Of a DNA stretch of 64,000 nt, positions 29,134 through 60,468 are shown one piece after another. The notes under the pieces were generated by a model, which worked only from the letters and a program-made list of their open reading frames with translations, did no database searches and had not been told where the DNA came from. The stretch's first letter is position 1. Each line of letters starts with the position of its first letter. The DNA is from an uncultured Oxalobacter sp. Its GTDB lineage: Bacteria; Pseudomonadota; Gammaproteobacteria; Burkholderiales; Burkholderiaceae_D. The stretch covers positions 248,001-312,000 of the forward strand of contig CAKQWF010000001.1 of the NCBI GenBank assembly GCA_934277985.1, read 5' to 3'. The position numbers and the translations under genes are program-made.

Positions 29134-29138
29134 GATGT

Positions 29139-41537: not shown

Positions 41538-41581
41538 ATATGTTTTTGACGACGCCATGCCAGGGCAGCACCGGAGGGAAA

Positions 41582-42574
41582 ATGTCAAAACAACAAGGGA
41601 AGCTCGATACCGTCATGCTGGTGATTGAACTGTTGCGGCGTATTCCGCGAAACCGGAAAGTGACCGCATCCGAATTGCATCAGGCACTCAGGGACGCCGG
41701 ATGGGAGCGTGACTTGCGCACCGTGCAACGGCAACTTGACGCGATAAGCGACGGTTTCAGCCAGTATATCGAGCGGGACGACCGCAACAGGCCGTACGGA
41801 TATTCCTGGAAACCCGAGGCATCCGGACTGTCACTGTCGGCATTGAAACCGGATGAATCGCTGATGCTGTTGCTGGCGGAACAGCATTTGCGCTATCTCT
41901 TGCCGGCCAATATCGTCAAGTCACTGGACAGTTTTTTCAAAACGGCGCGCTCGCAGCTTTCGCCGTTCGGACAGGATACGAAAAAACAGAAAGAATGGCT
42001 CGACAAGGTGCTGGTCATCAGCGATTCACAGCCGCTCATTCCGCCGAAAATCGACAGTAACGTCATGGAAGCGGTCAGCACGGCATTGTATGAAAACCGC
42101 TGGCTGTCGGTGACCTACCGCAATGCGAGCGGTAACGAACGGCAGGACGACATCATGCCGCTGGGACTGGCACAGCAGGGACAACGCCTGTATCTGGTAT
42201 GCCGCTTCAAGCGATACGACAACGAGCGGATTCTGGCGCTGCACCGTATCCTTTCGGCGACAGCGACGGCATTTACCTTCACGCGGCCTGCCGACTTCGA
42301 TCTGGCGAAATACAACGAGGAAGGCCATTTCGGTGTCGGGGATGGCATCCGTGTCCGGCTGCGCTTTCATATGGCGAAAGCATGCGCCTACTACATTCTG
42401 GAATCCCCCCTGTCGGAAGACCAGATCTGTGAGAAACACGAAATGCATTACGTCTTTACCGCCACCGTCGTCGATTCCGGCAGGCTGCAACGCTGGCTCA
42501 ACAGCTTCGGCGGAGATGTCTGGAACGTGACGAAAGAACCGGTCGAAAAAACGCCGGAACCGGCGGAACGGTAG
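41582..42574 (+). CDS. WYL-domain HTH regulator
   Basis: Transcription factor of 330 aa: an N-terminal winged HTH (about 10-75, TASELHQALRDAGWERDLRT, RQLDAISDGFSQ), a linker, a WYL domain (about 155-235, RWLSVTYRNASG, PLGLAQQGQRLYLVCRF) and a C-terminal WCX region. ATG 41582 follows GGAGGG and is preferred to an upstream start at 41525. Regulators of this kind (BrxR/CapW group) often repress phage-defence genes and respond to nucleic-acid ligands. Here a DUF262 protein converges on it and the Hma element lies beyond. The link to either is inference. Confidence 0.85.
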   Translation: MSKQQGKLDTVMLVIELLRRIPRNRKVTASELHQALRDAGWERDLRTVQRQLDAISDGFSQYIERDDRNRPYGYSWKPEASGLSLSALKPDESLMLLLAEQHLRYLLPANIVKSLDSFFKTARSQLSPFGQDTKKQKEWLDKVLVISDSQPLIPPKIDSNVMEAVSTALYENRWLSVTYRNASGNERQDDIMPLGLAQQGQRLYLVCRFKRYDNERILALHRILSATATAFTFTRPADFDLAKYNEEGHFGVGDGIRVRLRFHMAKACAYYILESPLSEDQICEKHEMHYVFTATVVDSGRLQRWLNSFGGDVWNVTKEPVEKTPEPAER

Positions 42575-42616
42575 AGCTGCCGGACATGTTCAGACGGGGA
42601 AATGGAAACGGAACGA

Positions 42617-42672
42617 CGTCCTGAAACGGTATGGCTTCAGGACGGAAGAACGTCACCTGAAACGGTTTCAGG
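42617..42672. terminator. Two hairpins between the WYL and DUF262 genes
   Basis: CGTCCTGAA / TTCAGGACG (9 bp, 42617-42625 and 42636-42644) and CCTGAAA-CGG-TTTCAGG (42656-42672) share the word CCTGAAACGG. The second overlaps the stop of the minus-strand gene. They lack T runs, so termination would be inefficient or Rho-assisted. Confidence 0.45.
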
Positions 42673-45145
42673 AACCGGGTGATGTATCAAATATATCCTT
42701 GATACCCAGGTCGTCATACCATTTTCTGTAAATTCCGATCATACGATTCAGTGCCGCCTCCGCGAATGCTTTGGCCTTGTCATTTGCCGCATTTCCGCTG
42801 TTTTTCGGAGTGCCGGCTGGTGAGGTCCGGAAATCGTTTTTTTCACAAGTAAAACCGGCTTTCAATTCATCCAGCGACTTGTCATCCGGCGACTTGTTCG
42901 TGTAACAAAAGGCATTGGACCAGTATTCGTCGGATAGGGAAGACGGCGAATTATTGTTTTTGCTGCGGTTTTCCGAAAAAGAGAGTGCCATCTGATTGCC
43001 GATACTTTGTTGCAGGCATTTGCACAGGTAGTAAGCCTTGATGAAGTCTGATTTCGAGGAGCCGGTGCCATTGAAAAAATCGCTGGGTACGATATGGTCA
43101 TAGTCCCATGGACGGTTATGGTTTTCCCACAGGGAATGTTGTGATGGATCGTAACCGACCGCCAGTTCGGCAAGATAGTCGCGCTGGACATAAACCAGAA
43201 GTTCGGTTTCTTGGGACAGTATCGAAACGATATCGCGGTACGATTGCGCTTTTTCATCGGTCAGGAAAGAAGCAGGATTGTCTGCGCGGAGGGGCGATTT
43301 TCCTTCAGATGCTTCCCTGAAGCGGGCATTCAGTCCCTTGCCAAGTGCATCCAGCAAGGCATCGGGGGGAGCGGGGAAAGCCATCAGGTTATTGTCGGTA
43401 CCGGGTTGCGGCAGCTTGAATGCATCGATTTCGACGGGCGTGTTATCGTTCTGTTTTCTCCGGATTTCCTTGATCAGATCGTTGACCAGATCGGACTTTT
43501 TGTCACCGAACCAGTGTATGACGGTAGAGATGGCAAGAATGCGTTTCCTTTTACGGTCATCCAGTTCGCCGTAATTGAACGCTTCAGCCAGCAACATCCA
43601 CCATAAATAAACATCGGGACTGTACCATGCAATACTGCTGCGCAAATAGGGATGCAGGGTATATGGTTCCTTTTTGCCGTTGTGGCGGTATACAAGTTGG
43701 TTTTCGATCCATTCGATTGCCCTGAAAAGGCAATCATTGGAATCATTGGAAGCGTCCTTCTTATTGAAATATGCCCTGATGACATTCTGTTCCTTGTTCT
43801 CGCCTTTAAACCATGAACGAATGGTTTCTGTCTCGATATGGGTGAACAGTGGTTTTTCCTTATAGGTCAGTATTTCTCTGTCCGGGTTGTTTGCCGGTTT
43901 GACCGTCAGCAGTGCCGCCCTGACACCAAGCCGGACCAGTCTGGCTTCTCCGGTAGGCAAACCCTTTTGTTTTTCCTCGATGTGATTGATCGTTTTTTCC
44001 ACAGCAGGGAAATAAGCCTTTATCAACGAGTATTGCAATTCTTCCTGACTGATGGGCGATCCCTGATTGTTGATACGCTCGAAAATCAGGGCTGCATTGT
44101 CCACATTGCTGTTTTCGTTATTTTCATCGTAAAGACCGGTTGAACAATTGATGGCGGGAATGATTATATGCGGCAGTGGCGAGAGCCATTTTATGATTTT
44201 CTCCTGGTGATCTTCGAGCCATTTGCTTAATGTCACGGATGAATCCTTATCTGCCGTTCCGGCAATTTTATTGCGGCAAGTCAGCCAGTCGTCTATGAAA
44301 GCGATCCATGGATTTTCGAGCAGGTTTTTCCAGTCGATGGAGATGCCATTCGTACTGTTTTTCGCATATTTCATCAACAATCCCATGGGAATGGGCTCGA
44401 CGGCTTGTTGCGGCACACTGGCATTGACATGGTACGTCTTGTTGCCGGAACCTTCATTTGAAGATGAAACGACCTCGTCGTAGGTTTTCCTGAAATTTTC
44501 GATATCGTCGTGATAATGAAGCCGAGAGGCATTGTCATCGACAGAATACCCCCATGGATGGGCTGTCGTCGTCAGCCGGAAAAGGTATTTGCGGCTGGTT
44601 CTGGGGGGGTTTTTCGGATAGTGATCGAATGGCATCAAATCGAGCCATAACATGCTTTTTGCAGCCGTGTCGTCAGTCAGAGGCAAGGTATATTTCCCCT
44701 TGCTGTTTTTTTTCGGTTGTTCAGGTAAATAAAAACCCCAAGCAATGGCATTGCTGCGCTGCTGTCCGTCAAGAATATGGTATGACACTTCGGGCGCTGG
44801 ACCGGTTACTTCGGGCGCTGGACCGGTTACCGGCGAGGGTTTCGTATCCTGTCCCGTAATTTTTTTTGCCAGAAGCAGTGAACCGACCGGAAACGAGCGG
44901 AGCAAAGAGTCCCAGAACAGTTCGATCTGACGGGCGCGCCAGACAGCGCCGCGCTGCAAGGTGGGCAAACCGGCATGAATACCGGTTTGCCCCTTCAGGC
45001 TTTCCGGCCTGAAGGACGCTTTCTGTTCCGACAGTGTTTTATCCGTAATTTGCCAGGATGCGATATCCCATAAGGTCAGAGCGAAGATGTGCGGATCGGC
45101 AGTATTGCCTGAATACGGTTCGTTGCAAGATATATCTTTTGGCAT
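42668..45145 (-). CDS. DUF262/HNH protein (GmrSD-like), possible defence nuclease
   Basis: Protein of 825 aa. The N-terminal DUF262 (ParB/Srx-like) domain shows LPTLQRGAVWRARQIELFWD and the diagnostic ILDGQQRSNAIAWG (about residues 125-138). A C-terminal HNH-type motif reads WDYDHIVPSDFFNG (about 690), as in DUF1524-like nucleases; this pairing is that of GmrSD-type modification-dependent enzymes and related defence proteins. A 7-residue tandem repeat (TGPAPEV twice, about 44791-44832) lies just before the DGQQR motif. ATG 45145 has GAGG eight bases upstream. It converges on the WYL regulator and lies outside the integrative element. Confidence 0.8.
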   Translation of the reverse strand: MPKDISCNEPYSGNTADPHIFALTLWDIASWQITDKTLSEQKASFRPESLKGQTGIHAGLPTLQRGAVWRARQIELFWDSLLRSFPVGSLLLAKKITGQDTKPSPVTGPAPEVTGPAPEVSYHILDGQQRSNAIAWGFYLPEQPKKNSKGKYTLPLTDDTAAKSMLWLDLMPFDHYPKNPPRTSRKYLFRLTTTAHPWGYSVDDNASRLHYHDDIENFRKTYDEVVSSSNEGSGNKTYHVNASVPQQAVEPIPMGLLMKYAKNSTNGISIDWKNLLENPWIAFIDDWLTCRNKIAGTADKDSSVTLSKWLEDHQEKIIKWLSPLPHIIIPAINCSTGLYDENNENSNVDNAALIFERINNQGSPISQEELQYSLIKAYFPAVEKTINHIEEKQKGLPTGEARLVRLGVRAALLTVKPANNPDREILTYKEKPLFTHIETETIRSWFKGENKEQNVIRAYFNKKDASNDSNDCLFRAIEWIENQLVYRHNGKKEPYTLHPYLRSSIAWYSPDVYLWWMLLAEAFNYGELDDRKRKRILAISTVIHWFGDKKSDLVNDLIKEIRRKQNDNTPVEIDAFKLPQPGTDNNLMAFPAPPDALLDALGKGLNARFREASEGKSPLRADNPASFLTDEKAQSYRDIVSILSQETELLVYVQRDYLAELAVGYDPSQHSLWENHNRPWDYDHIVPSDFFNGTGSSKSDFIKAYYLCKCLQQSIGNQMALSFSENRSKNNNSPSSLSDEYWSNAFCYTNKSPDDKSLDELKAGFTCEKNDFRTSPAGTPKNSGNAANDKAKAFAEAALNRMIGIYRKWYDDLGIKDIFDTSPGS
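44791..44832. repeat. 21-base tandem duplication inside the DUF262 gene
   Basis: Two back-to-back copies of ACTTCGGGCGCTGGACCGGTT encode the repeat VTGPAPE-VTGPAPE. It lies just upstream of the DGQQR motif, in what is probably an exposed loop. The period keeps the reading frame, so loss or gain of a unit would change loop length by seven residues. Confidence 0.85.
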
Positions 45146-45401
45146 GTGATTACCTCGAGGGACAGTCTGGTTGGCAAGGCATTTGCCCGTCATGCGACTT
45201 TTCGACAGAGATCAGTGTAATACAGTCTGATACAACGGGGTATAGGTTCGACAGTCGATGCCCGGCAGGTTATGCACGGAAAAGGATGTCTGACAAAAGT
45301 GTGTTTTGCAGATGCGCTATGGTAACGGGAACGGGGGCAGACGGTTTTCCGGAAAAGTACGACAATTTGCCGCGTGACGTGTCATATACGGTATTTCAGG
45401 C

Positions 45402-45439
45402 AACAAAAAAGCCGCGCCAACTCGGGTTTGACACGGCTT
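45402..45439 (-). terminator. Left-end terminator hairpin, copy of the one after tRNA-Ser (candidate attL)
   Basis: On the minus strand it reads AAGCCGTGTCAAA-CCGA-loop-GGCGCGGCTT plus a T run, a stem with two G-U pairs. Its 15-base AACAAAAAAGCCGCG (45402-45416) is identical to 60529-60543 beside tRNA-Ser, and ACACGGCTT is also shared. No minus-strand gene close upstream needs it, which is what a duplicated attachment region would leave behind. Confidence 0.6.
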
Positions 45440-45517
45440 GTCTGTTCGATGAAGGAAGTCTAATTGTTACTGTAACCTATTGATTTAAAAATGTAAGCAT
45501 CTGTTAGATTTTTACGA

Positions 45518-45541
45518 AGGTACCTAAAAAGGTACCCAAAA
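45518..45541 (+). repeat. Left GGTACC arm-type repeat of the integrative element
   Basis: AGGTACC...GGTACCCAAAA, 24 bases, matching 60469-60492 at 21 of 24 positions and in the same orientation. Both copies have two GGTACC words exactly 12 bases apart. The position just inside the hairpin copy at each end suggests integrase arm binding sites. Confidence 0.7.
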
Positions 45542-45722
45542 CATGGGGATAAGCATAGAAACAATAGGCTGCATTACTCAAAAACATTTTATTTTTTATT
45601 GGATGTTGCATTTTCAACATAAAAGGTTCCAAAATGATAGTCGAACTCTGGATTTTACAATCTGCCTGTTCCGACAAAGCCTGCACTAGGCAGAACGCAC
45701 AATCTATTGCCAACATATCCAC

Positions 45723-45908
45723 TCAAATGTCCAGTTCCGGCAATTCCCTGACGATCTTCATGGTTTCCAGCAATACGGTAATGATGCGCTGCACCAGTTC
45801 CAGCGGGTATTTCGGACAGTGCATAGCGCATATCGTCCAGTCATTGGTACATTGACGATACCACAAGATAACATTATCCGTTCCCATCGACGTTGAACGG
45901 ATATACAA
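45723..45908 (-). CDS. Small protein after the Hma ATPase gene (TTG start)
   Basis: Predicted 61-aa protein, unrecognised, with Trp, Cys and Pro in WTICAMHCPKYPLELVQRII and a C-terminal helix (VLLETMKIVRELPEL). A TTG start at 45908 has GAGAGAGG six bases upstream, unusually good for a spurious ORF; an internal ATG at 45887 is an alternative. It starts 25 bases after the ATPase stop and reads in the same direction, so it would be the last gene of the Hma operon. Reality is uncertain. Confidence 0.45.
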   Translation of the reverse strand: MYIRSTSMGTDNVILWYRQCTNDWTICAMHCPKYPLELVQRIITVLLETMKIVRELPELDI

Positions 45909-45933
45909 GGCACACCTCTCTCAATATAACCGC

Positions 45934-48747
45934 CTAACTATCTTCATCAAACTCAGCATTTTCGAATTTCAACGTTCGACAATTTTCCATCACGGCACGC
46001 TGTATTTGTTCATCAAAGCCATCCGGTGAATTCGCCTCGATTTCTACGGAAACGGAAACCGTTACACCCGGCTTTAATGTAAATTGCTGAACAACTTCAT
46101 CGACAATCTGGGCAAACTGCAATTTCGCGCGGACAGGATCCAGTTCGATACTGGCAAAGAAACGTTTGCTATCGGGACGCTTGCTGCGATCTGGCGCAGA
46201 ATTGCCCACTGCAACGCTTACTGCACCATCAGAACGTATGACAGCGGACATTCCGCCATCCTGCACATGAGGCACTGTCTGCGATTGTTCAATCGCCACG
46301 GCATAAGCACTCGCCTTGTCCGGGCGAATCAGCAACATGGATTCATCAAGAATAACCGAAGTCGTTTTTCCCAAAACGAAACCCAAATAACGGCCATCTT
46401 CCTTTCCCTGTGCAACCCCAAAAAAATCCGTACTGGTCACACCGCTGGCAACAGTATTCCTGAATACCGTATCGTCCCTTAACCTCGGCAAATACAACTG
46501 CTGGCAACTCTGCTGCCAGACTTGAAGCGCCTTGACCTCGTCGATTCCGTCTTTCCAGAACCAATCCCTCAACATATTTGCCAGATGAACAGGCGCCCAT
46601 TCCGAAATGACCAGCTCGTTGTCCGCCAACACCCGATTGACTTCCTGCGCCCAATTCTGTGAACTCGCATTCAATTGATAAGGCTCACAACACACACTTG
46701 TCAACTGTTTATCAGGCGTCACATCCTGAACCGGCGCCAGCAACCAGCAATATGTTTCGCGTACCATGCGGCGGAAAGCATCCTGTGCCCTGCCTTGCGC
46801 ATCGCTTGCCTGCCTGGCCATCAGATTATCCAGAACGATACGTTCGTCCCTGTAATCCGAAACAATCGTATTCCATGCAAGTAAAGTACGCGCCTGATCT
46901 TTCAGACGGCTGACATTGTTTGCATCGGCAGCGATAAACAACAAACGGTTCTGCCGGTAACGCGGCTGATTGCCATGCTGTGCCAGAAGCTCAAGCGCTT
47001 TGTCTTCCGCAAGACTTTTTCCTGTTTTACTGTACGGAAAAGCGGGGGACAACACGACAAAGCGCAATGCCCAGTCATCCGGAATATCACCGCTTTCCGT
47101 AAAGACATGCATGGCAACCGTACTGGAAAAACTGCGCTGGATTTGTGTCCGGATCATCGGCAACACATCCATTTCATCCGTAAAGCGTCTTTTCCGTTCT
47201 TCCATTTCACGGCGCAAATTCGGACGTGTATCCAGCCAGAAATGATTATTGTCACAATTAAGATAATGTAACCTGTCCCCCAGACGACGCAAGGCATCAT
47301 CAAACAGGCTCGGCGGCTGATCCGGCAAGGCGGCTCCCAACAGTACACGCTCTTTTTCCAGCCCCCTGATCCGCTGGTTGCGTGTCGTCGGCGCACTGCC
47401 CAGAAAAATCGTCCGCGCAGTTCTTCTGCATGCCTGAACTTTACCCAGACGTGCATCTGTCTTTTCGATTTCCCATGTCTGTGCGAATTCCCCATCGACA
47501 TCCCGCTCGATAACAGGATCCCAACCCTGCGGCAAATAATAAATCGCCTCGTTACGTGTATCAGGGTCCATCAAAGGCAGACTGCCCGGCATAATCATCG
47601 GATCATTATTGCCATCCTTCCACAAGCGATGAATGATCTTCGCCATGAATTTCAGGACACCACGCGTACGCTGGAAATTGTCCAGTGTGGACCAATCCTC
47701 GTAGAGACGATCGAAAACCTCCGGATGTATCGGATAAGCCTGAACCAGACGTTCCCGATAACCGCTCTCCTGCGTTTCACGAGGAAAATCATGCTCATGA
47801 GACACGTAATAATCCGCATAGGCACGACAAACCGCCTGCATGGCATTCACATCCGTGACATCGGAAAACAATCGCCTGCGCACGATTTCAAATGCTTCTT
47901 CGGTAGCGACCGGTTTCCAGAGCTTCTGGACACGTGCAAAATAATGTTCCAGAGAACGCAACGCCAAAACACCCTGCTGGCTGCCTGCCTCCCTTTCAGA
48001 ATAAGGCAACGAAACAAGCAACACCGCAGTCGGAACACCGCTGACGGCTTCGGTCAGCGCCTGGATAAATGACAACTGCGTATCATACGTCCCCCCCGGA
48101 AGACGACGGCTTTCCTCGAACTGCGATACATAACGCACCAATTCGTCCATCAGGATGACACACGGCGAACAAGCCGCTATCAATTCCGTCAACTCGGCTT
48201 TTCCGGGAGCGGTTCCCGCTTCATCCGCAGCTTTGACACAAGCATAACCTGCCTCGCCCCCCAGCTGCCATGCCAGTTCTCCCCAGAGCGTATGCACAGC
48301 CACTTTCCCATGTTCTCTTGCCTTGCTGGCGAGACCCAGCAAATTGACGCCATCGAGAACGGCAATGCGTGTATCGGGCAACTGGGTAATATCGGCAGCA
48401 TCCAGAATCGGCGGAACCCCCTGCATCTCGCTGGTCTGCACAGCATGTCGAGCCAGATGATACACAGCCAAAATCGTATGCGTCTTGCCACCGCCGAACG
48501 CCGTTTGCAACTGAATGACCGGATCGCCCCCTTTTCCTGACAAACGGCGCACCACAGAATCGAGCAACAGGCGCATACCTTCCGTAATGAACGTTCTCTG
48601 GAAAAAACGCACCGGATTCTGGTATTCCTCACTTGCGGTCCCTGCATGAACACGCGAAAGATCCGCCGCAAATTCGGACTGGATAAACCTGCCTTCCTGC
48701 ACATCGGGATGTGGTACCGCGATTTCACGCCATGGTTTCAATGTCAT
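45934..48747 (-). CDS. DUF499-type ATPase, third gene of an Hma-like defence operon
   Basis: Large P-loop ATPase of about 937 aa with the DUF499 layout. It starts with [19 protein letters not shown], then Walker [13 protein letters not shown] (about residue 85) and a Walker B-like [12 protein letters not shown] (about 190). Long helical and Trp-rich regions follow, and the C-terminus is a beta-rich [12 protein letters not shown] region. AGGAG spacing favours ATG 48747 over 48753. It begins 13 bases after the methylase stop. DUF499 ATPases next to DUF1156 methylases and SNF2 helicases form the Hma system. Its action on phage DNA is inferred from the family, not shown. Confidence 0.85.
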
Positions 48748-48760
48748 TGCCATTCTCCTG

Positions 48761-51640
48761 TCAGATATCCATTTCCCGCTGCGTACCGGCCACACCAACT
48801 TCCTCGGCCGCCTGCTCGATTCCGTTCCATGCCGTCACCAGCTCATTATAGGCACGCGCATCTTCCGCCCTGCCTTGTTGTTCGCACACCGTATATAACC
48901 GATACGCCAATTGCCGTATCGGCTCTGCCATTCCGGGAATACGTGCCAGCATAGCACCTGCCCCCGATTCGCCTTGCCGGTTCAGCAGCCGGATCAGATG
49001 ATGGAGCGCTTCCCATTGCGGCAGCCGCTTGTCGTTTTCCGGCGTCCAGTCTTCCGGCAACTCGCGCCATTGCAGCAAACGGCACTTCCCATTGACGGCT
49101 TCGACAACCCCCGCCTCAACCAGGCCATCAACACTGATGCCCTTGGCTCGGGCCAGCACATCCGCCTGACCATAGACGCCCGCCATCCAGCCATGCTGTA
49201 TGAACCATTCCAGACAAAAAAGCGTATCCGCATCGAAATCATCCGACGCCACGAACCGGTTGATCAGTTGCAACGCCGTCCTGACTGTCATGGGCTTGCC
49301 ATCCGATTCCAGTACGGCCGCATACTGGCTGAAAATTTCCATCCCCGGCCCGATAATCGCCTGACTCAGATCGACAGGCGCCACAGGACTATTGATACCG
49401 CCACGTGTCATTTCTTCGAGTGCGTCGGGCAACACCCGGTTCAGTTCGCGGATGAACTGCCGCCTGTTGACCGTCGCCGCATCATCGGCGCGTTTGCGAC
49501 AAACCAGCACGATACTGGAAGCCAGTGCATTATTGCCTGTGCCAACCATCCTGTTGCTCAATTCCGTCCGCATCGGCCAGGTTCCGGTAATGGCGAACCC
49601 GGATTCGATCACCGCTTGCAAAAAAGTTTCCCAACCCGTGCTGGATGTGCCGTCCTCACTGGTTTCGGATTGCTTGAACGCATAGTAAATCGTGACGGGA
49701 AAAGCCGGATGCGCTTGTCGCGCCAGATTGCCGATGGCTTGCCGCATGCCGTCCAGAAAAAAGCGTTCAGCCTCTTTTTTGCAGGCATGCCGGTAAGGTG
49801 CGGCAATCAGTTCATCGTTTTTCGGCGTACTGATCGTCGCGAACAGTCCGGGATAAATAGACCGCAGATTTTTGCGCAACCAAATATAAAAGAAATCGGA
49901 CAAATCGGCATAACCGATATTGTCATAATAAGGCGGGTCGGTTGAAATGACTTTATTTTGACTTATATTCTGAGATTGGGCGTTTGACTGTTCTGCAACA
50001 CACGACTTGAAAGATGGTAATTCCGATAGTGCTTTCCATGTCCAATCCAGCATATTTTTGGCACTACCGGACGACAGGCAAAAAGGATTGACTTCCGAGA
50101 AATCCCATGTCATTGGAATGGCCTGCCGACCGAATGTATTTCTTATTTTTTCTCCTGATGTGTGCCACCCACAAATCGTCGAACCATAATCACCACATTT
50201 ATCGATAACAAATACCAGATAAACTCCAACCGCCTGTCCATAAGCCGTAGCGCCTCGTCCACCTTCATCCAGTCCTTTGCCATCATCGGGCATGCCGACA
50301 GCCAGCGCATCCTGTTTGCATTTTTCGATGACTTCCGGTATTAGATCGGAAAAAACCGTCAAGGCTGTCAGTTGACGCTGTGTGAAAAGATCGCCATAAC
50401 AATCTATACCATAGTTACTGACATTCACTCTGCATTTCCCATCCAACCTGACGGGCGAATACCATGCGCCTGAAACCGATAAGGCAATCGTTTCATGTTC
50501 CGGTGTAGGGGAAAGATAGATTCTCCCGCGTTTTCCTTCCGCGACGACAGCCATCAGTTTTTGTCCCAATCTCCCTGCTTTGCCTTCTGCACGGATATGT
50601 TCGTAACTGATCGGCGAACCGGACAATATACAACGAAAAGCCGCACGTTTGCCTGCACTGGTACCGCTTTTGGCAGCATCTGGCGGTGTGCCGGTTTTGA
50701 CCCGGAAGGTATAGCGATTGCCCGAAATGACCGGTTCTACCCAGGCTTCTTTCCCTTTCCTGCTCGACAACACAAAGGAAGAAACCAGTGGAACATCGAC
50801 ATGGGAAAACGCCGGATTGCTGCTTTTGACCGTCCGTGCCCAGAGCCATGCGATGACCGTCAGTTTTTGTCCGAGCAGCGGCTTCAGATCGGGCCGCTCG
50901 CGCACCATATCGGCCGTGACTTCTATGGTGGGATACAAGTGACCGATCCGTTTTCTGGCGGCTTCCAGCAACCACATGCCATAGCGCCGGACATCTTCTG
51001 CCAGTCCACGCGAACCGCCCCAGTCTTTCACCCAGTCGTCCTGATCGTCTTCTGCCGACCGCGGTCCGACAGGCACTCTCCCTGCAAAACGTGGCGGAAT
51101 CTCGATCATGGCCTTGTTGATCATCACCGCCACCGGATTGAGGTCGGACGCCCAACTTTCCAGCCCCAGGCGCTGCGCTTCCAGCGGCAAGGCGCCACCG
51201 CCTGCAAACGGATCATGAAAACCCGGCAGTTTATCGGGATTGAACAATTCATCAGCTTGCGGATGCTTTTTGTTCAATTCGCAAATCTCGCGCCAGGAAC
51301 GCCATATTTCGACACGTGCACGTTCCAGCACTTCTTCATTATCGGTATTTTCCCATTTGACGAGATCTTCGATGATACGAAACAGACGTTCCCGTTCCTG
51401 TTTGGCTTTTTCCTTGTTGACCCCGTAACGGAAACCACCCCCTTGTTGATAACCGGGATCGTTGACCATCTGTGCGAAAATCACGGCACGTGCAGCTGCC
51501 AGCGGACGACGTGCCCACCAGAGATGCAATGTCGATGGATGGCCATGGCGAATGGATTTTTCGCGCACACAGGCCCGATTGATGGCATCGAGCGGCAAAG
51601 CCACCTCGATCAGTTTTTTGGGATTTTTGATAATGCTCAT
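48761..51640 (-). CDS. DUF1156 adenine-specific DNA methylase, second gene of the Hma operon
   Basis: DNA methyltransferase of 959 aa. An N-terminal DUF1156 block (about residues 5-80, with [20 protein letters not shown]) is followed by the AdoMet region [17 protein letters not shown] (about 150) and the catalytic [19 protein letters not shown] (DPPY, about 567) characteristic of N6-adenine/N4-cytosine enzymes. The gap of about 415 residues between the two holds the likely target-recognition region. It starts six bases after the helicase stop. Host DNA marking with the helicase as attacker is the expected division of labour. Confidence 0.9.
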
Positions 51641-51646
51641 ATTCTG

Positions 51647-54600
51647 TTATACGTTGGCGGTTTCCGCACGTTCCAGCAATTTTGCCAGATCCATGTTCAG
51701 ACTGACGGTTCCGGGTTCGGGTTCATGCGTAAACGGTGCGCGGATATAGTACGGACCTTCATGCCGCTCGCCATCGACGAGAACGATCGCGAGAATGAAT
51801 TTTTCTTTCTGGTTCAGGGCATACAGGATTTCATTATGCGTTACGGTAATAGTCGTTTGCCCTTTGGCTCGCCCCTTGACTTCGATATGCCGTGATTCAG
51901 CGGCTACGCCATTGCTTGTCATCAGAATGCTTGTGATATCCCAACCGCATTTCTGATCCGATACATCCGTCACATGATGGCCCATCGCCTGTTCTGTCTC
52001 GATAACGGCCTGCATGGCAATCCGTTCGATATGACGTCGCATCGCTGCATCGGCTGTCCATCCGGGTTGATGGCTTCGCTGCAGGAGCAATCCTTGCGGT
52101 ATGACCAATGCGCTGCCGAGTATGACCGGCGTCGATGAAACGACACGACGCTTGTTTTCCAACTCCTGTTGCCGTGTCTGCAAACGTGCCGTCAAATCGT
52201 CGTGTATCTGCTCGGCCTTGCTGATTTGCAGACGTACATCTTTCCCCGCTTGTGCATCACTGGTCAGTTTGATATGACGATCCGCCCAGTAATTGATTTC
52301 CTTGATCAGGCGTTCGCGAACGGCCACGAGGGTTTTGTCCACCATTTCGGTACGGCGTGTCTGTACTTCATTCAAATGGTTGGGAACGATGTCTGCCAAT
52401 GCATGGCGCAATGCGACTTTTTCAAGATCGCCGGATATCCAGGATTCATCCAGTATATCTTCGACCAGCTTGTATTCTGCCGGTTCTGCCGGTTTCAGAT
52501 CAAGGTGCGGTGCCCACCCTGCATTGCGTGTCTTGCCATTTTTGTCCACCTCGACGAATTGAAGCCTGCGTGAAACGATCTGTTCGGGATCATGACCTTC
52601 ACGAATGGCGTGATCGATAATCAAAATGACGGTGGGTTCGATACCCATGTCATTCGGATTGATGAGTACACTCCCCTGTTTTAACAGCTTGCGGTATTTT
52701 TCCAGAATGATGTCTGTCAGTGAAAGCATGAGCGGATGACCGGGATGCAACAGTTCTGCCATGGCTGCCGTTTTGTTTTTCAGACGGATATACTGTTTGT
52801 CAAAACAGACTCTGTCATAACGGCGCAATACAGGATTGATATTGTGCGTGTTGCGTCCTGATATCTGGCGGTCACGCTCACGGATGATGCCGGGTACATG
52901 CGTGATTTCATAGCGTCCCGCTTCGCGTGGCCGGATGACGCCGCCTTCCAGTTTGAAGGCTTGCTCGAAAAAAGATCTGACAAACGATGGTTGAAGACGA
53001 CGTGCTTCCGCTTTTTCCATTTCTTCACGAACGGCAAACAAACGCTTGTCATCCATGATTTCTTCACACAGTGCATTCCGTTTCAGAATATCGCGCAAAT
53101 GCTCGGTATCGAGTGCGCCTTCCATTTTTTGCAATAGTTCGTCACGCTTTACCGGATCATTGCCATAACGGATCGCCTCGATCAACAGCTCACGCAAACT
53201 TTTTTCGGCAAATACTTCTCCCAGAATGTCGAATACACGCCCTCCCAGGGTGGCACGTTCCACTTCCAGTTTGTCAAACAGTTTATGGAAAACATCGCCT
53301 TCTCGTGTTTCCGACGCGACCAGATTCCACAAATGACAGACTTCCGTCTGACCGATACGGTGGATACGTCCGAAACGCTGTTCAAGCCGGTTGGGATTCC
53401 ACGGCAAATCATAGTTGATCATCAGATTGGCGTTTTGCAAATTGACGCCTTCTCCTGCCGCATCGGTAGCAATCAGCACTTTCACATCCGGATCATTGCG
53501 AAACAGCTCTTGTGTTTTCCGTCTTTCTTCCCGTTTGATACCACCATGAATGAGCACAATGGCTTTTTCGCTGCCGATCAGACCACGTATTTTCGCATTC
53601 AGATAGTTCAGCGTATCACGATGTTCTGTAAAGATGATCAGTTTCCGTTGCTGTCCTGTATCGTCTCGCATCTCTGCGGTATTCTGCAACAGTTGTGACA
53701 ATTGTTCCCATTTGCAGTCCTGATTGGACAAGACAACTTGTTTGGCTTCTTCTTCGAGTTTCTCCAGAATGGCGATTTCCGCTTCCAGTTCCTTGACTGT
53801 TTGAGCGGTGGTGGTTTTGTCCACCATTTCTTCCTCGAAATTTTCGTATTCTTCTGCTCGCAGATTGTCGCTACTATCCCATATGCCCTCATCTGCCGGT
53901 GTATCATCAAACAGATCGATCAGGGATTGTCCACGATGTCGCAATCGTGCTTCTTCCAGTTTGCTCTTCAGTCTCCTGTGGCGACGTTTTAATGATTGGA
54001 AAATGGCTTCGGGACTGGACGCCAGACGGCGTTGCAGTGCCGTCAAAGCAAAACCGATGTTGTTTCTTCTACCCTTTGCAAGCGAATCCGCTTTGTCAAA
54101 CTCGTTTTTGACATAGTTGGTGACATTTTCATAGAGCGAGGCTTCCATATCGGACAACCGGTAGTTGACCGTATAGGCACGACGCTCCGGAAACAGTTTC
54201 GTTCCGTCGAATTTGAGCAGATCTTCTTTGACCATCCTGCGCATGAGATCGGATACATCCACCTGATGGACACCGTCACGGAATTTCCCATAAAAACGGT
54301 CTGCATCCAATAACGACATAAAGAGCTGGAAGTCTTCATCCTTGCCGTTGTGCGGCGTTGCCGTCATCAGTAAAAAGTGGCGCGTAATGGCGCCTAGCAA
54401 TTCCCCCAACTGGAAACGTTTGGTTTTTTTGATTTTATTTCCGAAATAATTGGCAGAAAGTTTATGCGCTTCATCAACGATGATCAGATCCCATCGTGTC
54501 AGCTTCAGTTTTTCGCTCAATTCATCGGAACGCGCCAACTGGTCAACACGCGCTACCATCAAATCATGATCTTCAAATGGATTTCCGCTACGCGACTGTT

Positions 54601-55162
54601 CAACTTGTTCTCGAGAAAATATAGTGAACGTCAGTCCGAACTTCTCGAACATTTCATCCTGCCATTGCTCTACCAGACTGCCCGGTGCCACAATCAGTAT
54701 CCGTCTGGCATCCGATCTGGCCATCAGTTCCCTGATATACAATCCGGCCATAATGGTTTTCCCTGCACCCGGATCATCAGCCAGTACATAACGTAACGGT
54801 TGACGCGGCAACATGGATTCATACACGGCTGTAATCTGGTGGGGAAGCGGCTCGACATTGGATGTGTGCACTGCCATCATCGGATCAAAAAGATACGCCA
54901 GATCAATTCTCAACGCTTCTGTGGCAAGTTTGAATTCCTTGCCCGGTGCGTCGAACGACCAGGGACGCCCCTTGTCTGCGACAGACAAGGATGCCTCATC
55001 AGAACGAAAAATCATTCGTTCACGTATAGAGCCGTCCGCCAACTTATAGACTACTGTTAGCGCATCATCACCTATTGGCTCCGCTGTAATAATCTCGACA
55101 GAATCGGCTGGTTCCAGCCCTGCGATAGACATTTTCCTTTGAATCTGTTCGAGTTTCAGCAT
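51647..55162 (-). CDS. SNF2-type helicase with C-terminal DUF3883, first gene of the Hma operon
   Basis: ATP-dependent DNA translocase of 1171 aa. Walker A in [19 protein letters not shown] (about 130), DEAH in [14 protein letters not shown] (about 227), [15 protein letters not shown], and the second RecA half with [20 protein letters not shown] and [10 protein letters not shown] (about 600-640) are intact. The last 100 residues match DUF3883: a PD-(D/E)xK-like GWDITS...RHIEVKGR and [11 protein letters not shown], a possible nuclease or DNA-end-binding domain. AGGTG six bases ahead of ATG 55162 supports the start. Helicase, methylase and ATPase in this order on one strand define the Hma type. 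Confidence 0.9.
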
Positions 55163-55366
55163 GTATCACCTGTATTCATCAAGGTATCCTCACGTTCTTC
55201 TCCTTGTAAAGAGAAAATGCCCATCGGTCTATACGTACAACAAAGAAATATTCTATCAAGTATGCTATACCAAAGACAGTTCCCGAACACGCATCTGAAG
55301 CCAACCTGCCTGTTCGTGCCATCAATACAAAACAGTCCGGTTTTTCCTAAAAGTCCTAAATTACTT

Positions 55367-55378
55367 TAAGTTAACTTA
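55367..55378. promoter_or_regulatory. 12-base palindrome TAAGTTAACTTA upstream of the helicase gene
   Basis: Perfect palindrome in the 231-base gap (55163-55393) ahead of the Hma helicase, next to a CCTAAAAGTCCTAAA double word. It is the clearest candidate operator for the defence operon. I could not pin down a convincing -35/-10 pair. Confidence 0.4.
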
Positions 55379-55393
55379 CCGCCCATCACTATT

Positions 55394-55867
55394 TCACGCC
55401 TTTAAAATCCGCTCCAGATCGTCATATCGCTCTTGAATGCGGTTTTCTTCCGGTTCATATTCATTCAGAAAATCATCTCCAATATGGATTCCCGTATACC
55501 GGCAGACCGCCTCGAACGAAATGCCATGACTATCGCACAGCCGTCTCATGGCCAGAACATGCGCTTTCAGCTTCCTGGCCTGAACAGTCATCTCTTTTTC
55601 ATCGTATTCACCCAGTTCCCTGATTCCGGATATCCCATAGGCAGCACACTGTTTCCAGAACGTCATGCCCCAGTACATGGCCGTGATACTGATTCGCTCC
55701 AGATGATGCCGGTAAACCGCATCCGGGATGTAGTAGGTATATTGGGGGATGTGAAGGATGATTTCATTCAATGCTTTCTCATCGGTATGGGCAATATGAC
55801 TGAAAGCAAGAGAAGCCAGTTCTTTGGCGGTCATGTTTTGATATAAACGATTCATGGATGTTTTCAT
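55394..55867 (-). CDS. Element protein of unknown function (157 aa)
   Basis: Predicted soluble protein, not recognised. It is mostly helical, with Tyr/His-rich HIPQYTYYIPDAVYRHHLE (about 40-58) and RRLCDSHGISFEAVCRYTGI near the C-terminus. It overlaps the gene before it by four bases (ATGA), so it belongs to the element's early or replication operon. Such genes next to AlpA/RepA in integrative elements are usually accessory and short-lived; no function is offered. Confidence 0.65.
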   Translation of the reverse strand: MKTSMNRLYQNMTAKELASLAFSHIAHTDEKALNEIILHIPQYTYYIPDAVYRHHLERISITAMYWGMTFWKQCAAYGISGIRELGEYDEKEMTVQARKLKAHVLAMRRLCDSHGISFEAVCRYTGIHIGDDFLNEYEPEENRIQERYDDLERILKA

Positions 55868-56142
55868 GGTTTTCTCATTTTCAAGGCCTGTTCAATCAGG
55901 GTGATTCTTTCCTGCAAGAGGTCGGTTTCATAGGCTTTCCGGATCATGTCAAGGACGTAGGCCAGCCGGGTTCCATCCTGTGCCGGAATTTTCCCGGTTC
56001 GCATGTCACGGTAGACTTTGCCCATTTCCCGCCGGATTTCCGTCGGGTTGTAAAGATCAATTCTCATCGGGGAACGATCTTCCGTTTTCCGTTCACTTTC
56101 AACGAGTTGCCACGTTTTCTCCCGTGTGTTTCTTTCCGTCAT
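55864..56142 (-). CDS. Element protein of unknown function (92 aa)
   Basis: Small charged helical protein, unrecognised, with RIDLYNPTEIRREMGKVYRD and ending in a helix QERITLIEQALKMRKP. The stop is coupled to the 157-aa gene (ATGA overlap). It starts 12 bases after the upstream TubC-like gene stop. The pattern suggests a small accessory of the element's replication or regulation module. Confidence 0.65.
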   Translation of the reverse strand: MTERNTREKTWQLVESERKTEDRSPMRIDLYNPTEIRREMGKVYRDMRTGKIPAQDGTRLAYVLDMIRKAYETDLLQERITLIEQALKMRKP

Positions 56143-56154
56143 GGCTTATCCTGT

Positions 56155-56601
56155 TCAGTGAATGCAGAATGATTCCGGCCAGTTTGCCCGTGAGGTGGCC
56201 AGATAATCCGGCATATCGAACTTCTCCCGGCATTCCTGTAACAGGCGTTCTGCTGCATCATCCCGGCCTTCTTTTAATGCCTGTCTGATCTGGTTTTTTC
56301 TCAGGATATTCCAGACCGTTCGCGCCTCGTCCTGTGCCTGCCAGTACGTTTTGCCGTAACGCTTTTGCAGGTATCGGGCAATGAAGGCAACGGTTTCACC
56401 ATGAAACAGAGCAATTTTCGCCAGCATCTCTCTTTCTATTTCGTTCAGATAAGCGATGATGTCTGGTTTTTTCTGTTTCAGTTCCGGCAAAAACGGTTTG
56501 ACGGTTTCCGGATTGTCTGCACGGATTTTCAGGTTGCCATTGTCTGTAGTGACGGTTATGCCTTTTTCTCTCAACTGGCTGATCAGGTCTTGTATACTCA
56601 T
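56155..56601 (-). CDS. TubC-N-like small protein of the element
   Basis: Protein of 148 aa. The first 50 residues resemble the TubC N-terminal docking domain (MSIQDLISQLREKGITVTTD, LPELKQKKPDIIAYLNEIE), a fold used for protein-protein docking in synthetases and also seen in mobile-element proteins. The rest is helical and carries RYLQKRYGKTYWQAQDEA. It overlaps the ATPase gene by four bases. A docking partner for the ATPase is a reasonable guess. Confidence 0.65.
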   Translation of the reverse strand: MSIQDLISQLREKGITVTTDNGNLKIRADNPETVKPFLPELKQKKPDIIAYLNEIEREMLAKIALFHGETVAFIARYLQKRYGKTYWQAQDEARTVWNILRKNQIRQALKEGRDDAAERLLQECREKFDMPDYLATSRANWPESFCIH

Positions 56602-57944
56602 ATCGTCACCTCGTATGGGATTGCCGGGTCATTGGCTGGTTTTGTCGGAACTGATAAACCGGTTTCCCGCTCAGGATGGTCAAGGGTCTCATCTTTTCCC
56701 AGTTGAGATTCTTGGGACACTTGAGCTTCTTGAAACGTTTTGCCGTGCTTTTGCACGTCAAGGGTCTCAAGGATCCCAAGGGTCTCATCTCTGCAGACTG
56801 GGACACTTGATGAGACACTTGGTTTCTGGAGTGTGTCGTCTTCCAAAGTCCAGCACCACGAAGTACCGATTTTTCGGGATTTGATTGGCAACTGGTATTT
56901 CGCCCGTTTCAGGGTTGATTTCGAGATGCCCAGCTGTTTGGCGGCCGCTTCTATTTCCGCCTGTTTTTTGGCTCCGTATGCCAGTTCTTCCATCAAAAAG
57001 GTTTTGGCTTCGTCCACTGCACCTGATGTTTTTCTGTCTGCCTCTTCCAGCTCTCCCAATAATTCACGGGCACTGCTTTCACGGTACTGCCCCCAATCAA
57101 TGCAGGATGTCGCTATTTTGCCGTTTTCCGTTTCGACAAGTTTCTGTTCCAGCTGGTATTCGAACCCGCCGGTATCCCTGCCGATGTTGGATTTGGCAAT
57201 ACAGAGGATTCTTTTTTCGCTGGCCTCGTCTTTGGCCGCTGTCAGAACGACTCTGGCCAGTGCGGTGAAGGCCTGGGAACCCAGGATTCTTTCCTGTACG
57301 TTGGTTCCGGCCCGCCCTTTGGCAAAATGGGTGATGCCCACGATGGCACACTGGTATTTTCCGGAAATGTCGACCAATGGTTGCAGATTTGCACGGACTT
57401 CATTGGCCTTGTTGATATCTCCGGAGATGAGTCCGACCACCGGATCGACGATGATGAGCCGGATGTTGCCCAGATTCTCTATCTGCTGTTGTATGGCGTA
57501 AAAGTCTCTGGTCGGGTCGAATGGTGTATCTTCTCCCTTGTCACGATAACCGGAAATGATGAAGACGTTGTCCAGATCGGCACCTGCCGCACTCAATCGC
57601 GGGACGATGGTATGTTGTGGACTGTCTTCCGCTGACCATATCAGGACATTGCCCTGACGGCACGATGATCCATCCGGGAATTTTCCGCCTTTTGAAACAA
57701 TGGCTGCCACGTTCAGGGCGATGGTGGTCTTGCCGGTTCCGGCCTGCCCGGCCAGCAGGGTAAGCATGCCTTGCGGGATCATGTCCGGCCATAACCATGT
57801 GACGGGTTCTATTCTGATATCGCTGGCTCTTGTGAGTACGACACCATATTCCGGTTCCGGCAAGGTTGCAACAACATGATTCTGGAGTACCTGATTGTCC
57901 GCCAGCAGGGCTTTTATGTCCGCTTCCAGCTCTTTTTCTGGCAT
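56598..57944 (-). CDS. RecA/RepA-like AAA ATPase (AAA_25) of the element
   Basis: Predicted hexameric ATPase of 448 aa. Walker A in LLAGQAGTGKTTIALNVAAI (about 62-80) and Walker B in IRLIIVDPVVGLISGD (about 161-176) are clear; ITHFAKGRAGTNVQERILGS is the RepA-type sensor region. The C-terminal third is Ser/Thr-rich with a possible HTH (AAKQLGISKSTLKRAKYQLP). Related proteins unwind the origin of satellites and integrative elements. It follows alpA by nine bases and overlaps the next gene. Confidence 0.82.
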   Translation of the reverse strand: MPEKELEADIKALLADNQVLQNHVVATLPEPEYGVVLTRASDIRIEPVTWLWPDMIPQGMLTLLAGQAGTGKTTIALNVAAIVSKGGKFPDGSSCRQGNVLIWSAEDSPQHTIVPRLSAAGADLDNVFIISGYRDKGEDTPFDPTRDFYAIQQQIENLGNIRLIIVDPVVGLISGDINKANEVRANLQPLVDISGKYQCAIVGITHFAKGRAGTNVQERILGSQAFTALARVVLTAAKDEASEKRILCIAKSNIGRDTGGFEYQLEQKLVETENGKIATSCIDWGQYRESSARELLGELEEADRKTSGAVDEAKTFLMEELAYGAKKQAEIEAAAKQLGISKSTLKRAKYQLPIKSRKIGTSWCWTLEDDTLQKPSVSSSVPVCRDETLGILETLDVQKHGKTFQEAQVSQESQLGKDETLDHPERETGLSVPTKPANDPAIPYEVTI

Positions 57945-57953
57945 GGCTGTCTC

Positions 57954-58181
57954 CTATTCCGGACGACTGGCGGAGATACGGGAAGCAATAAATGCTTCAA
58001 TATCGGATTGCAGCCATCCGACTGCTCTGGCTCCCAGTTTGATGGGTTTCGGAATCTCTCCTTTTTTGATCAGGTCATACAGGGTCGTCTTGGACAGACC
58101 GGTCAGGGCTTTCAGCTGGTGCAACCGGATGATCTGCAATGTTGTTCCGGAGCATGGAATGGTGATGGATTCCTGATGCAT
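57954..58181 (-). CDS. alpA: AlpA-family transcriptional regulator
   Basis: Short DNA-binding protein of 75 aa with the MerR/AlpA-like HTH (LKALTGLSKTTLYDLIKKGE, PIKLGARAVGWLQSDIEAFI). GGAG lies upstream of ATG 58181. In P4-like elements AlpA activates the integrase or excision genes. Here it is first of a short operon with the RepA-like ATPase, 105 bases from the 300-aa gene. Confidence 0.9.
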   Translation of the reverse strand: MHQESITIPCSGTTLQIIRLHQLKALTGLSKTTLYDLIKKGEIPKPIKLGARAVGWLQSDIEAFIASRISASRPE

Positions 58182-58286
58182 ATTGATAACTCCATTCGTT
58201 AAGGTTCTTCCGCGTTCGGTGCGGCATGGCGTTATCTTGCTAGGTTCGGAACAGAGAAAAGTCTAATAGTCTTTTTTTTTGGTCTA

Positions 58287-59189
58287 TTAGACTTTTGTCT
58301 TGTCCTGTACAGTCTGTGATAGACTGGGAAATCGGGTCAGTGCTTCTTTGAGAATGTTGCTTACAACCGTTTTGCTGACAGGATTACCGTTTAATTGTGA
58401 AGCAAATACTATTCTTTTCAGCCCGGATAAGCGTACATTTTCGATTTTTATGTCCAATTCGCGTGCCATGGCTGAAATAATTTTCAGGTATGAGTCTTTG
58501 TTGCGATCATCTTTGAAATCATTCGTTCGTCGGTCATTTCCCTGTTTGGAATTTCCACTCGTCCTGGTCTTGTCGTCGTGTTCCGGATGAGTCAGTCCAG
58601 TCAATTTCTTGTAAATTCTGCTTTCATCGTAGCCAAGGTTTCTTGCCAAACAGGCAGATAATTCCAGAGGGTCAAAACCAAATCTTTCCATGGCATCGGG
58701 TGCATAGGCGCCCATCATGCTTCCTTCGTCACTTTTACCGATGAAAGATAAATTGGCAAACAGGTTGTCCAGTTCATTGGTGCCATCCAGAGGGGCGATA
58801 TTGCGTCCCTTGCTTTGATCTATCGGTTCGTCTTTGGCTCTGCTTACCTTTCGTCGACCATTGACGACGTAATAGATATATACCGCAACATCTTTTTCGT
58901 ATGCCATCCTATGCAATTCGTTTGCGGCTTCTTTTCGGGACTGCGCATTACTTACATTATGTGGCTTGCCAAGAGCAGACAGCACTTCCCATGCTTTTCT
59001 GGCACTTACAAACTCTTTCCGACTTCTGATTTCTCTTGCTTTCTCAATGGATGCCATGCATACCTCACATACTTGTACCCGGTAAACATCCCGAATCCGG
59101 GAATTTGTTTTTTTTGAATACGGACGGAAAGTGACGATTCCATACCGTTCTTCCCCGACCGTTATTGTACTGTACATATTGACAGTCAT
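58287..59189 (-). CDS. Element protein of unknown function (300 aa), coupled to the integrase
   Basis: Soluble protein with no family I recognise. It has a charged N-terminus, an Asn/Lys/Asp-rich low-complexity middle (about 205-235, TSGNSKQGNDRRTNDFKDD), and a short C-terminal region (NPVSKTVVSNILKEALTRF) that could be an HTH. Its ATG overlaps the integrase stop by four bases, so it is made with the integrase. A recombination directionality or maintenance role is possible but not shown. Confidence 0.6.
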   Translation of the reverse strand: MTVNMYSTITVGEERYGIVTFRPYSKKTNSRIRDVYRVQVCEVCMASIEKAREIRSRKEFVSARKAWEVLSALGKPHNVSNAQSRKEAANELHRMAYEKDVAVYIYYVVNGRRKVSRAKDEPIDQSKGRNIAPLDGTNELDNLFANLSFIGKSDEGSMMGAYAPDAMERFGFDPLELSACLARNLGYDESRIYKKLTGLTHPEHDDKTRTSGNSKQGNDRRTNDFKDDRNKDSYLKIISAMARELDIKIENVRLSGLKRIVFASQLNGNPVSKTVVSNILKEALTRFPSLSQTVQDKTKV

Positions 59190-60436
59190 GCGCGTTTCAG
59201 GGAAATGATCTTTCCCGTTCTCAGACTGTCGATATGGTCTGCCCAGTCCTGCATCATTTTCCGACGCTCTTTGACGAAATCCGCCCTGAAATAGGCGGCC
59301 TGTATTTTGTTGGTTTGCTTATGGGCCAGTTGCCTGTCAATGACTTCCCTACGGTATTCCAGTTTTTCTTCCAATGTACTGGCTGCCAGTGACCGGAATC
59401 CGTGTCCTGTCATTCTTCCATGGTATCCCATGCGTTTTAATGCCATGAGAATGGCTCCATTGCTCATGGGTTTTCTTGGGGCTCTCTGGTTCGGAAACAG
59501 GTATTGGTTATTTCCTGTGATGGTCTTGAGTTCGTTTAACAGTTCAATGGCCTGTCTGGATAGGTCTATCCGGTGATTGGTCATGTCCGGGTTGATTTTC
59601 TTTTTTCCCATTTTCATGCGTTGCCATGGAATGATCCAGACTCCTTTATCCAGATCGATTTCCGTCCATTCCGCTTCGATCAGTTCACTGGTTCTAATAA
59701 AGGTCAGCATCATGAGTTGGATGGCTATCCGGGTGGTGATGTACAGTCTGGCCTTGTTCTGCTCCAGCGTTCTGATGAATTCCGGAAGTTCATCAGGCGT
59801 AATGGCAGCAAAGTGTCCTTTGGGGGCCGGTTTTAATATGTCGACCAGATCATTGGCGATGTTCCTGTCTGTGATGCCGTATTGGATGGCATAGCTGAAT
59901 ATCCGGGCGACATTGGCTTTGAGACGTTTGGCGATTTCAAAAGCCCCTCTGTCTTCTATCTTGCGCAAGGTGTCAATCAGTTGTTTGTGAGTGACTTCTG
60001 CAATCGGCACATGACCTATTTCCGGGAAGATATCTTTTTCCAGCCGGTTGATGATGTCTTTGGCAGTGTTTTCTTTCCAGCCGGACGAGCGGTTTTTGTG
60101 CCAGTCACGGGCAACTTTTTCGAAGGTATGTTCCGTCCGGCTTTTTTCCTGCTGTATTTTTTCAGCCTTGTCGGCTCGGGGATCGATACCGCTGGCGATC
60201 AGTTTCTGCGCTTCTTCCCGTTTGAGACGGGCTTCCTTGAGAGATACAGCTGGATATTTGCCGAAAGCCAATTTAATAGCTTTGTTGTTTATCCGGCATT
60301 TCATTTTCCACAATTTAGAACCGGAAGGCGTGATCTCCAGATACAAGCCACCACCATCGAAAAGGGTATAGGGTTTATCTTTTGGCTTGGCGCTATCGAT
60401 CTGTTTGGGGACAAGAGGAGTGATCAGTCTGGCCAT
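59186..60436 (-). CDS. int: P4-type tyrosine integrase
   Basis: Site-specific recombinase of 416 aa with the N-terminal DUF4102 arm-binding domain (RLITPLVPKQIDS, DGGGLYLEITPSGSKLW). The catalytic domain has Arg in LTFIRTSELIEAEW (about 268), Lys in KMGKKKINPDM, His-x-x-Arg in TGHGFRSLAASTL and the nucleophile region KIQAAYFR. The start at 60436 has GGAGG eight bases away; an in-frame start at 60490 would run into the GGTACC sites. The gene faces tRNA-Ser(GCT), the usual target type, and reads away from it. Confidence 0.93.
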   Translation of the reverse strand: MARLITPLVPKQIDSAKPKDKPYTLFDGGGLYLEITPSGSKLWKMKCRINNKAIKLAFGKYPAVSLKEARLKREEAQKLIASGIDPRADKAEKIQQEKSRTEHTFEKVARDWHKNRSSGWKENTAKDIINRLEKDIFPEIGHVPIAEVTHKQLIDTLRKIEDRGAFEIAKRLKANVARIFSYAIQYGITDRNIANDLVDILKPAPKGHFAAITPDELPEFIRTLEQNKARLYITTRIAIQLMMLTFIRTSELIEAEWTEIDLDKGVWIIPWQRMKMGKKKINPDMTNHRIDLSRQAIELLNELKTITGNNQYLFPNQRAPRKPMSNGAILMALKRMGYHGRMTGHGFRSLAASTLEEKLEYRREVIDRQLAHKQTNKIQAAYFRADFVKERRKMMQDWADHIDSLRTGKIISLKRA

Positions 60437-60468
60437 TTTGGGTACCTCCGGAATGAGTACTGATGAAT

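Follow-up and report, generated by a model that had tools for sequence, protein, structure and literature searches.

DUF499 proteins were recorded in a 2013 survey in operons with an SNF2 helicase fused to DUF3883, which was termed there a novel restriction endonuclease domain (PMC3710099). The system was named Hma (helicase, methylase, ATPase) by Payne et al. in 2021 (PMC8565338). A 2026 study in Nucleic Acids Research placed it as Type-1 among the BREX-related (BR) systems centred on DUF499 (PMC12839542); BREX stands for bacteriophage exclusion. We analyzed a 64,000-base stretch of an uncultured Oxalobacter sp. (contig CAKQWF010000001.1, positions 248,001 to 312,000), hereafter the window, and found an Hma operon in it. 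Given the publications of 2013, 2021 and 2026, the kind of system is already known, and the window operon is a further example. No report of Hma in Oxalobacter was found in the literature searched, which left out most subscription papers and preprints. The reading that we consider likely is that an integrase-bearing element of about 15 kb at an Oxalobacter tRNA-Ser gene carries this Hma (Type-1 BREX-related) defence operon in intact form, and that HmaB would mark DNA, HmaC would assemble or license the complex and HmaA would cut.

The three genes form an intact Hma operon

Three minus-strand genes lie in the order hmaA, hmaB and hmaC, with intergenic gaps of 6 and 13 bases (Table 1). The original prediction, made from the letters of the window, had called them a complete Hma trio and proposed a search with Hma profiles. 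In that search, the PADLOC Hma profiles covered HmaA, HmaB and HmaC almost end to end and scored best by far (1990, 1685 and 1447 bits; best DISARM model, 426 bits), bearing out the trio in its order and spacing. Chance is not an issue in explaining profile scores of this size. The three frames contained no internal stops and kept their catalytic-type motifs, in agreement with the word complete; neither a better match to another system nor a broken motif was found.

The start of hmaC was placed at a methionine common to 14 aligned relatives, chosen from at least 120 listed, and its stop codon is 45934-45936. The operon had been predicted to span 45723-55162. Its upper end at 55162 held, and its lower end did not, as hmaC ends at 45934 and 45723-45908 is a separate frame. 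This error leaves the interpretation unchanged.

HmaB matched Pfam DUF1156 with 107 bits and MethyltransfD12 with 21.9 bits, just below the cut-off of 22; it gave no match to solved structures at E ≤ 1. It carries a DPPY motif, which we take as the sign of an amino-methyltransferase. The text of Payne et al. describes HmaB as a 5-methylcytosine enzyme (PMC8565338), whereas the motif of the window HmaB points instead to an amino-methyltransferase. HmaC contains DUF499 and Walker motifs. No HEPN domain fused to HmaC was found, with DUF499 as its only Pfam match at E ≤ 10, and a fused HEPN effector was rejected as a candidate. This differs from many Type-1 BR systems, in which the ATPase carries HEPN in 1370 of 2446 taxa according to PMC12839542. 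A profile search with HmaC returned two rows, both at chance level.

The operon resembles Type-1 BR as described in PMC12839542 in having an Snf2 helicase with a C-terminal PD-(D/E)XK-type domain, a DUF1156 methylase and a DUF499 ATPase, and in the lack of a DUF3780 match in Pfam scans of its neighbours. Type-1 BR is further characterized by a TUDOR domain at the helicase N-terminus and an RRM-like domain at the ATPase C-terminus. Type-2 BR has a DUF3780 gene and a helicase with an HKD (phospholipase D-like) nuclease at its N-terminus; the same Pfam scans detected neither DUF3780 in those neighbours nor a PLD domain in HmaA. The NCBIfam models taken as that subtype stayed under their cut-offs (183 of 1100, 107 of 1000 and 194 of 1200 bits), as did the NCBIfam models of another DUF1156/DUF499 pair.

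The HmaA tail is nuclease-like

The structure predicted for HmaA residues 987-1171 had a mean predicted local distance difference test score (pLDDT) of 83.4. The model resembled SPARDA nuclease and Hjc resolvase chains (Foldseek, VIA), and E1057, D1075, E1094 and K1096 were invariant in 40 aligned HmaA sequences. A PD-(D/E)XK nuclease-like fold with its charged residues kept is thus supported by model and alignment. With such a tail on HmaA, a separate restriction gene would not be required. The earlier proposal that DUF3883 cuts gains support to the extent of the fold matches and the invariant residues.

Relatives of the operon

We compared 81 loci, namely the best 80 of at least 537 and locus L152 of the Oxalobacter genome G551. 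Full-length proteins were kept for 39 HmaA, 57 HmaB and 74 HmaC, and no match was present in 26, 9 and 0 loci, respectively. Another 16 HmaA, 15 HmaB and 7 HmaC matches were dropped. Most of them were truncated by the edge of the available stretch (12 of 16 HmaA and 10 of 15 HmaB), and the remainder were excluded because of internal stops, their length or the lack of one end. There were 36 complete trios including L152. A spacing of at least 300 bases separated hmaA from hmaB in 21 and hmaB from hmaC in 14; both gaps were this wide in 11 trios and neither in 12. The window operon belongs to the compact class.

Payne et al. reported the same HmaA-HmaB-HmaC gene set, which the near full-length profile matches reproduce here, and a frequent association with Septu, seen also in relatives of the window operon (PMC8565338). 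The window operon differs from their description in its compact form without embedded genes. The G551 trio is compact too (gaps of 6 and 12 bases). It differs from the window in a ptuA-ptuB pair past hmaC, another middle block in HmaB and the lack of a full integrase relative.

HmaC was present in one of the 13 genomes of the Oxalobacter genus examined; these came from genome samples of 150 and 392, and a sample of 398 held no close host. Among the matches listed, the closest named HmaC was from a metagenome-assembled genome of Oxalobacter formigenes (87%); another HmaC relative, P0001, stood at 97%. A chromosomal DUF2863 protein of the window genome was 96% identical to that of G734 and 82% to that of Oxalobacter paraformigenes. 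Relatives of the system were also found in plasmid records (138 with a match) and in viral contigs (36 loci), and phage records gave no match. Gene order among these plasmid and viral relatives was inspected for L123 and L124 only. L123, on plasmid pVV8 of Thermus thermophilus HB8, is an Hma locus with a HEPN-annotated HmaC and with Fic, HicA/HicB and HTH genes among the hma genes.

An exchangeable block in HmaB

Identity between the window and G551 was 91% for HmaA, 87% for HmaC and 89% for HmaB outside residues 327-560, and 47% within this block. The ratios of nonsynonymous to synonymous substitution (dN/dS) against G551 were 0.075 for HmaA, 0.13 for HmaC and 0.076 for HmaB outside the block, indicating purifying selection on the Hma genes. 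Within the block dN was 0.52 and dS was 3.6 (saturated). Its synonymous sites differ too, which is expected of a replaced block and not of a fast-evolving one. HmaB outside the block was at least 70% identical in 622 of 1653 locus pairs. In 495 of these 622 the block was below 55%, and in a single pair its conservation came within 5 points of that of the rest.

The block was replaced while HmaA and HmaC hardly changed, so target choice probably resides in it; target recognition by HmaB is the simplest interpretation. Two points tell against this assignment. The block limits were set on the window/G551 pair before other pairs were tested, and the locus pairs share ancestry, so their counts are not independent. 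HmaC is variable as well, with 40-residue blocks at 67 to 77% in the window/G551 pair (lowest 67%). Because of these milder variable stretches HmaC may have a share in target recognition; a share in specificity is also proposed for it in PMC12839542.

The operon probably lies on an integrative element at tRNA-Ser

A tyrosine integrase gene lies next to tRNA-Ser(GCT), and the paired inner repeats enclose about 15.1 kb that include the Hma operon. The paired GGTACC repeats are possible arm sites of the integrase. The small protein encoded at 57954-58181 is presumably of the AlpA-like family. In a relative, G592, the corresponding site is 254 bases long, compared with 19.3 kb in the window (41308 to 60602). 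G616 carried another 5-kb segment there; of its genes, the two that were scanned code for an oxidoreductase and for an amino-acid permease. At the same tRNA-Ser, G636 carried a related integrase with 60% identity. The site is therefore variable. Beside the G636 integrase (L156 9566-15432) are genes for a DUF3987 protein and a 486-amino acid protein.

Integrase matches occurred in 12 of the 13 genus genomes, in G551 as fragments only. G551 has an exact 56-bp repeat at its tRNA-Ser terminator (L153 9070-9242) and 2.2 kb past ptuB (L152 16080-16135). A 27-residue integrase-like fragment is located at 17789-17869 of its Hma contig (L152). The integrase at tRNA-Ser, the flanking repeats and, as a possible empty site, the relative lacking 19.3 kb support the earlier view of the operon as cargo of an integrative element, the exact left end apart.

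A probable scar of two defence genes downstream of hmaC

In G551, a pair encoding PtuA (PADLOC, 516 bits) and PtuB (234 bits) begins 24 bases after hmaC. The window and G551 share the end of hmaC, the spacer and about five ptuA codons in a 67-column alignment, after which matching ends; the ptuA part of the scar thus consists of 15 coding bases plus the spacer. The rest of the 61-amino acid frame found here in the window corresponded to the 40 C-terminal residues of a Type ISP restriction-modification protein that G551 encodes at another place (score 146, compared with 46 for the best of 200 shuffles). This protein itself matched Type_ISP_C with 388 bits and PADLOC Type IIG with 516 bits. As it matches a ptuA start and a Type ISP end, the frame is by these alignments the junction of two lost genes, presumably produced by a deletion.

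A fourth Hma gene was also considered for this frame and rejected, as it is chimeric, had no match in 80 loci and gave two 33-residue partial matches among protein-database candidates. A general role of the region after hmaC as a docking bay was considered too, and dropped. Relatives of the G551 ptuA occurred in 11 of 80 loci, none after hmaC, and those found with the G551 PtuB query in 7 of 80; in loci with a placed hmaB, all of these lay upstream of it. Of 73 loci, 61 extended at least 1.5 kb past hmaC, and in none of these 61 did ptuA or ptuB follow it. Septu was seen after hmaC in G551 alone, apart from the scar in the window.

Table 1. Positions of the Hma operon, its element and adjacent features in the window
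Feature	Position	Strand	Description and evidence
hmaA	51647-55162	minus	SNF2-family helicase with C-terminal NOV_C/DUF3883 nuclease-like domain, 1171 aa; PADLOC HmaA 1989.8 bits over 1-1169; Pfam SNF2-rel_dom, Helicase_C, NOV_C
NOV_C (DUF3883) domain of HmaA	51746-52030	minus	Residues 1045-1139; Pfam 78 bits
hmaB	48761-51640	minus	DUF1156 amino-methyltransferase (putative) with DPPY motif, 959 aa; PADLOC HmaB 1685.3 bits; DPFAGGG at residue 143, DPPY at 568
HmaB exchangeable block	49961-50662	minus	Residues 327-560, proposed target-recognition domain; 47% identity to G551, 89% in remaining HmaB
hmaC	45934-48747	minus	DUF499 P-loop ATPase without N-terminal HEPN extension, 937 aa; PADLOC HmaC 1446.8 bits; GGGKTH at residue 85, ILMDE at 198
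Chimeric TTG-start frame, deletion scar (presumed)	45723-45908	minus	61 aa; about 5 ptuA-start codons (45908-45894), then last 40 codons of Type ISP restriction-modification gene (45845-45723)
Left repeat, probable attachment (att) site	45402-45439	minus	Terminator-like hairpin; 15-bp exact, 22-nt 91% repeat (45402-45423 and 60529-60550)
Right repeat, probable att site	60529-60570	minus	Terminator-like hairpin after tRNA-Ser; repeat with left end; G551 counterpart is a 56-bp exact repeat
GGTACC repeats, left end	45518-45541		88% over 24 nt to 60469-60492
GGTACC repeats, right end	60469-60492		88% over 24 nt to 45518-45541
TubC_N-domain protein	56155-56601	minus	Element backbone, 148 aa; Pfam 38.5 bits
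AAA_25 ATPase	56598-57944	minus	Element backbone, 448 aa; Pfam AAA_25 124 bits
AlpA-like (presumed) small helix-turn-helix protein	57954-58181	minus	75 aa
Tyrosine integrase	59186-60490	minus	434 aa; Pfam Phage_integrase, Arm-DNA-bind_3, Phage_int_M
tRNA-Ser(GCT)	60602-60695	minus	Integration site; ARAGORN; Rfam tRNA
GmrSD-like (HEC-05-like) protein	42668-45193	minus	841 aa; Pfam GmrSD_N; PADLOC HEC-05 4.4e-16 over residues 75-211; DGQQR at 142, DHIVP at 699
WYL-domain regulator	41525-42574	plus	Convergent with GmrSD-like gene; Pfam WYL, PADLOC WYL

Proposed mechanism and alternatives

HmaB would methylate a base, either adenine at N6 or cytosine at N4, in a short target that its middle block determines, and the HmaC ATPase would assemble or license the complex. 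HmaA would then move on unmodified incoming DNA and cut it via its C-terminal PD-(D/E)XK domain. Self and non-self would be told apart by HmaB marking host DNA and HmaA attacking unmarked DNA. Marking by the methylase and attack on unmarked DNA by the helicase-nuclease are likewise proposed in PMC12839542. More tentatively, and at somewhat less than an even chance, we suggest that the exchangeable HmaB block 327-560 sets target choice for protection and attack alike, that HmaA and HmaC are generic and alleles differ by block swap, and that the junction scar records the joint deletion of two former neighbours of the operon, a Septu pair and a restriction gene of Type ISP.

Several observations weigh against the reading of an intact operon on a tRNA-Ser element in which HmaA cuts. 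The predicted structure of HmaC was poor (mean pLDDT 53.8), below the quality needed to assess a C-terminal RRM-like domain, so the role of HmaC rests on its motifs. The local alignment of the two ends scored 60 and 319 overlapping 200-base control windows scored 43 or less, but these windows were not terminators. Both repeats are terminator-like hairpins, which weakens the control, and their likeness is perhaps partly convergent. G592 lacks more than the inner repeats enclose and has a different hairpin after its tRNA-Ser; its left break does not coincide with the inner repeat but falls at about 41.3 kb, a position near which no further copy of the repeat was seen. In G551, which was the only other carrier of Hma found, the relatives of the integrase are fragments of 27 and about 30 residues; a full one is lacking, and none was found beside the tRNA-Ser.

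Restriction might also work without a need for cutting. HmaC, as an ORC/Cdc6-like ATPase, and the HmaA helicase would then stop phage replication in the manner of BREX, with a secondary role for the NOV_C nuclease. DUF499 has been tied to CDC6/ORC1 ATPases (PMC7641849) and to BrxC, and the nuclease fusion is reported in 79% of Type-1 BR taxa, not in all (PMC12839542). The nuclease-type residues invariant in all 40 aligned HmaA tails argue against this alternative, and according to PMC12839542 a study confirmed a role of the HmaA helicase in phage defence; we regard it as unlikely. It is less probable still that the operon has no activity and is carried along as a passenger, or that it serves mainly as an addiction module by which the element stays in its host. 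Its place on an element and the two adjacent defence genes reduced to a scar, which indicate that this flank decays, would fit such a role, but the frames are intact, the motifs are conserved and dN/dS is about 0.1, which speaks against it.

An assignment to DISARM (defence island system associated with restriction-modification) or BREX was rejected, and we give it hardly any weight. DISARM (DrmD) and BREX type 3 (BrxHII) share a homologous Snf2 helicase core with HmaA. Through this core HmaA matched DrmD with 426.3 bits, the best rival score, then BrxH (BrxHI/BrxHII) with 323.1, and also a DrmA model with 248.7, among the best 25 of 56 PADLOC families. The HmaA profile scored far higher, and the NCBIfam DrmD model reached 385 bits against a cut-off of 610. 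The other subunits of these systems were not found here: five neighbour proteins scanned with PADLOC had no DISARM or BREX match (one matched HEC-05 and one weakly mad8), drmA and drmB were not found among them, and neither BrxC nor PglZ had a PADLOC match among eight proteins scanned, with HmaA represented by the same best 25 families.

Other features of the window

The genes of the GmrSD-like protein and the WYL regulator lie outside the inner repeats and within the 19.3-kb variable segment. WYL regulators are frequent beside defence islands. The GmrSD-like protein had a relative in one of the 13 genus genomes (44%). It is a type IV candidate and could complement Hma against modified phage DNA. 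Its gene contains an exact 21-bp tandem duplication (44787-44828). Elsewhere, the window holds a cobalamin riboswitch (11391-11630, 67 bits) and a tRNA-Ala(GGC) followed by two tRNA-Glu(TTC) (29058-29315).

Implications

With this operon, a genus of gut oxalate degraders joins the hosts of a widespread and little-tested defence system. The scar after hmaC offers a readable example of neighbouring defence modules being lost on one island. The window and G551 alleles differ most sharply in one HmaB block, making a direct test of the specificity subunit possible.
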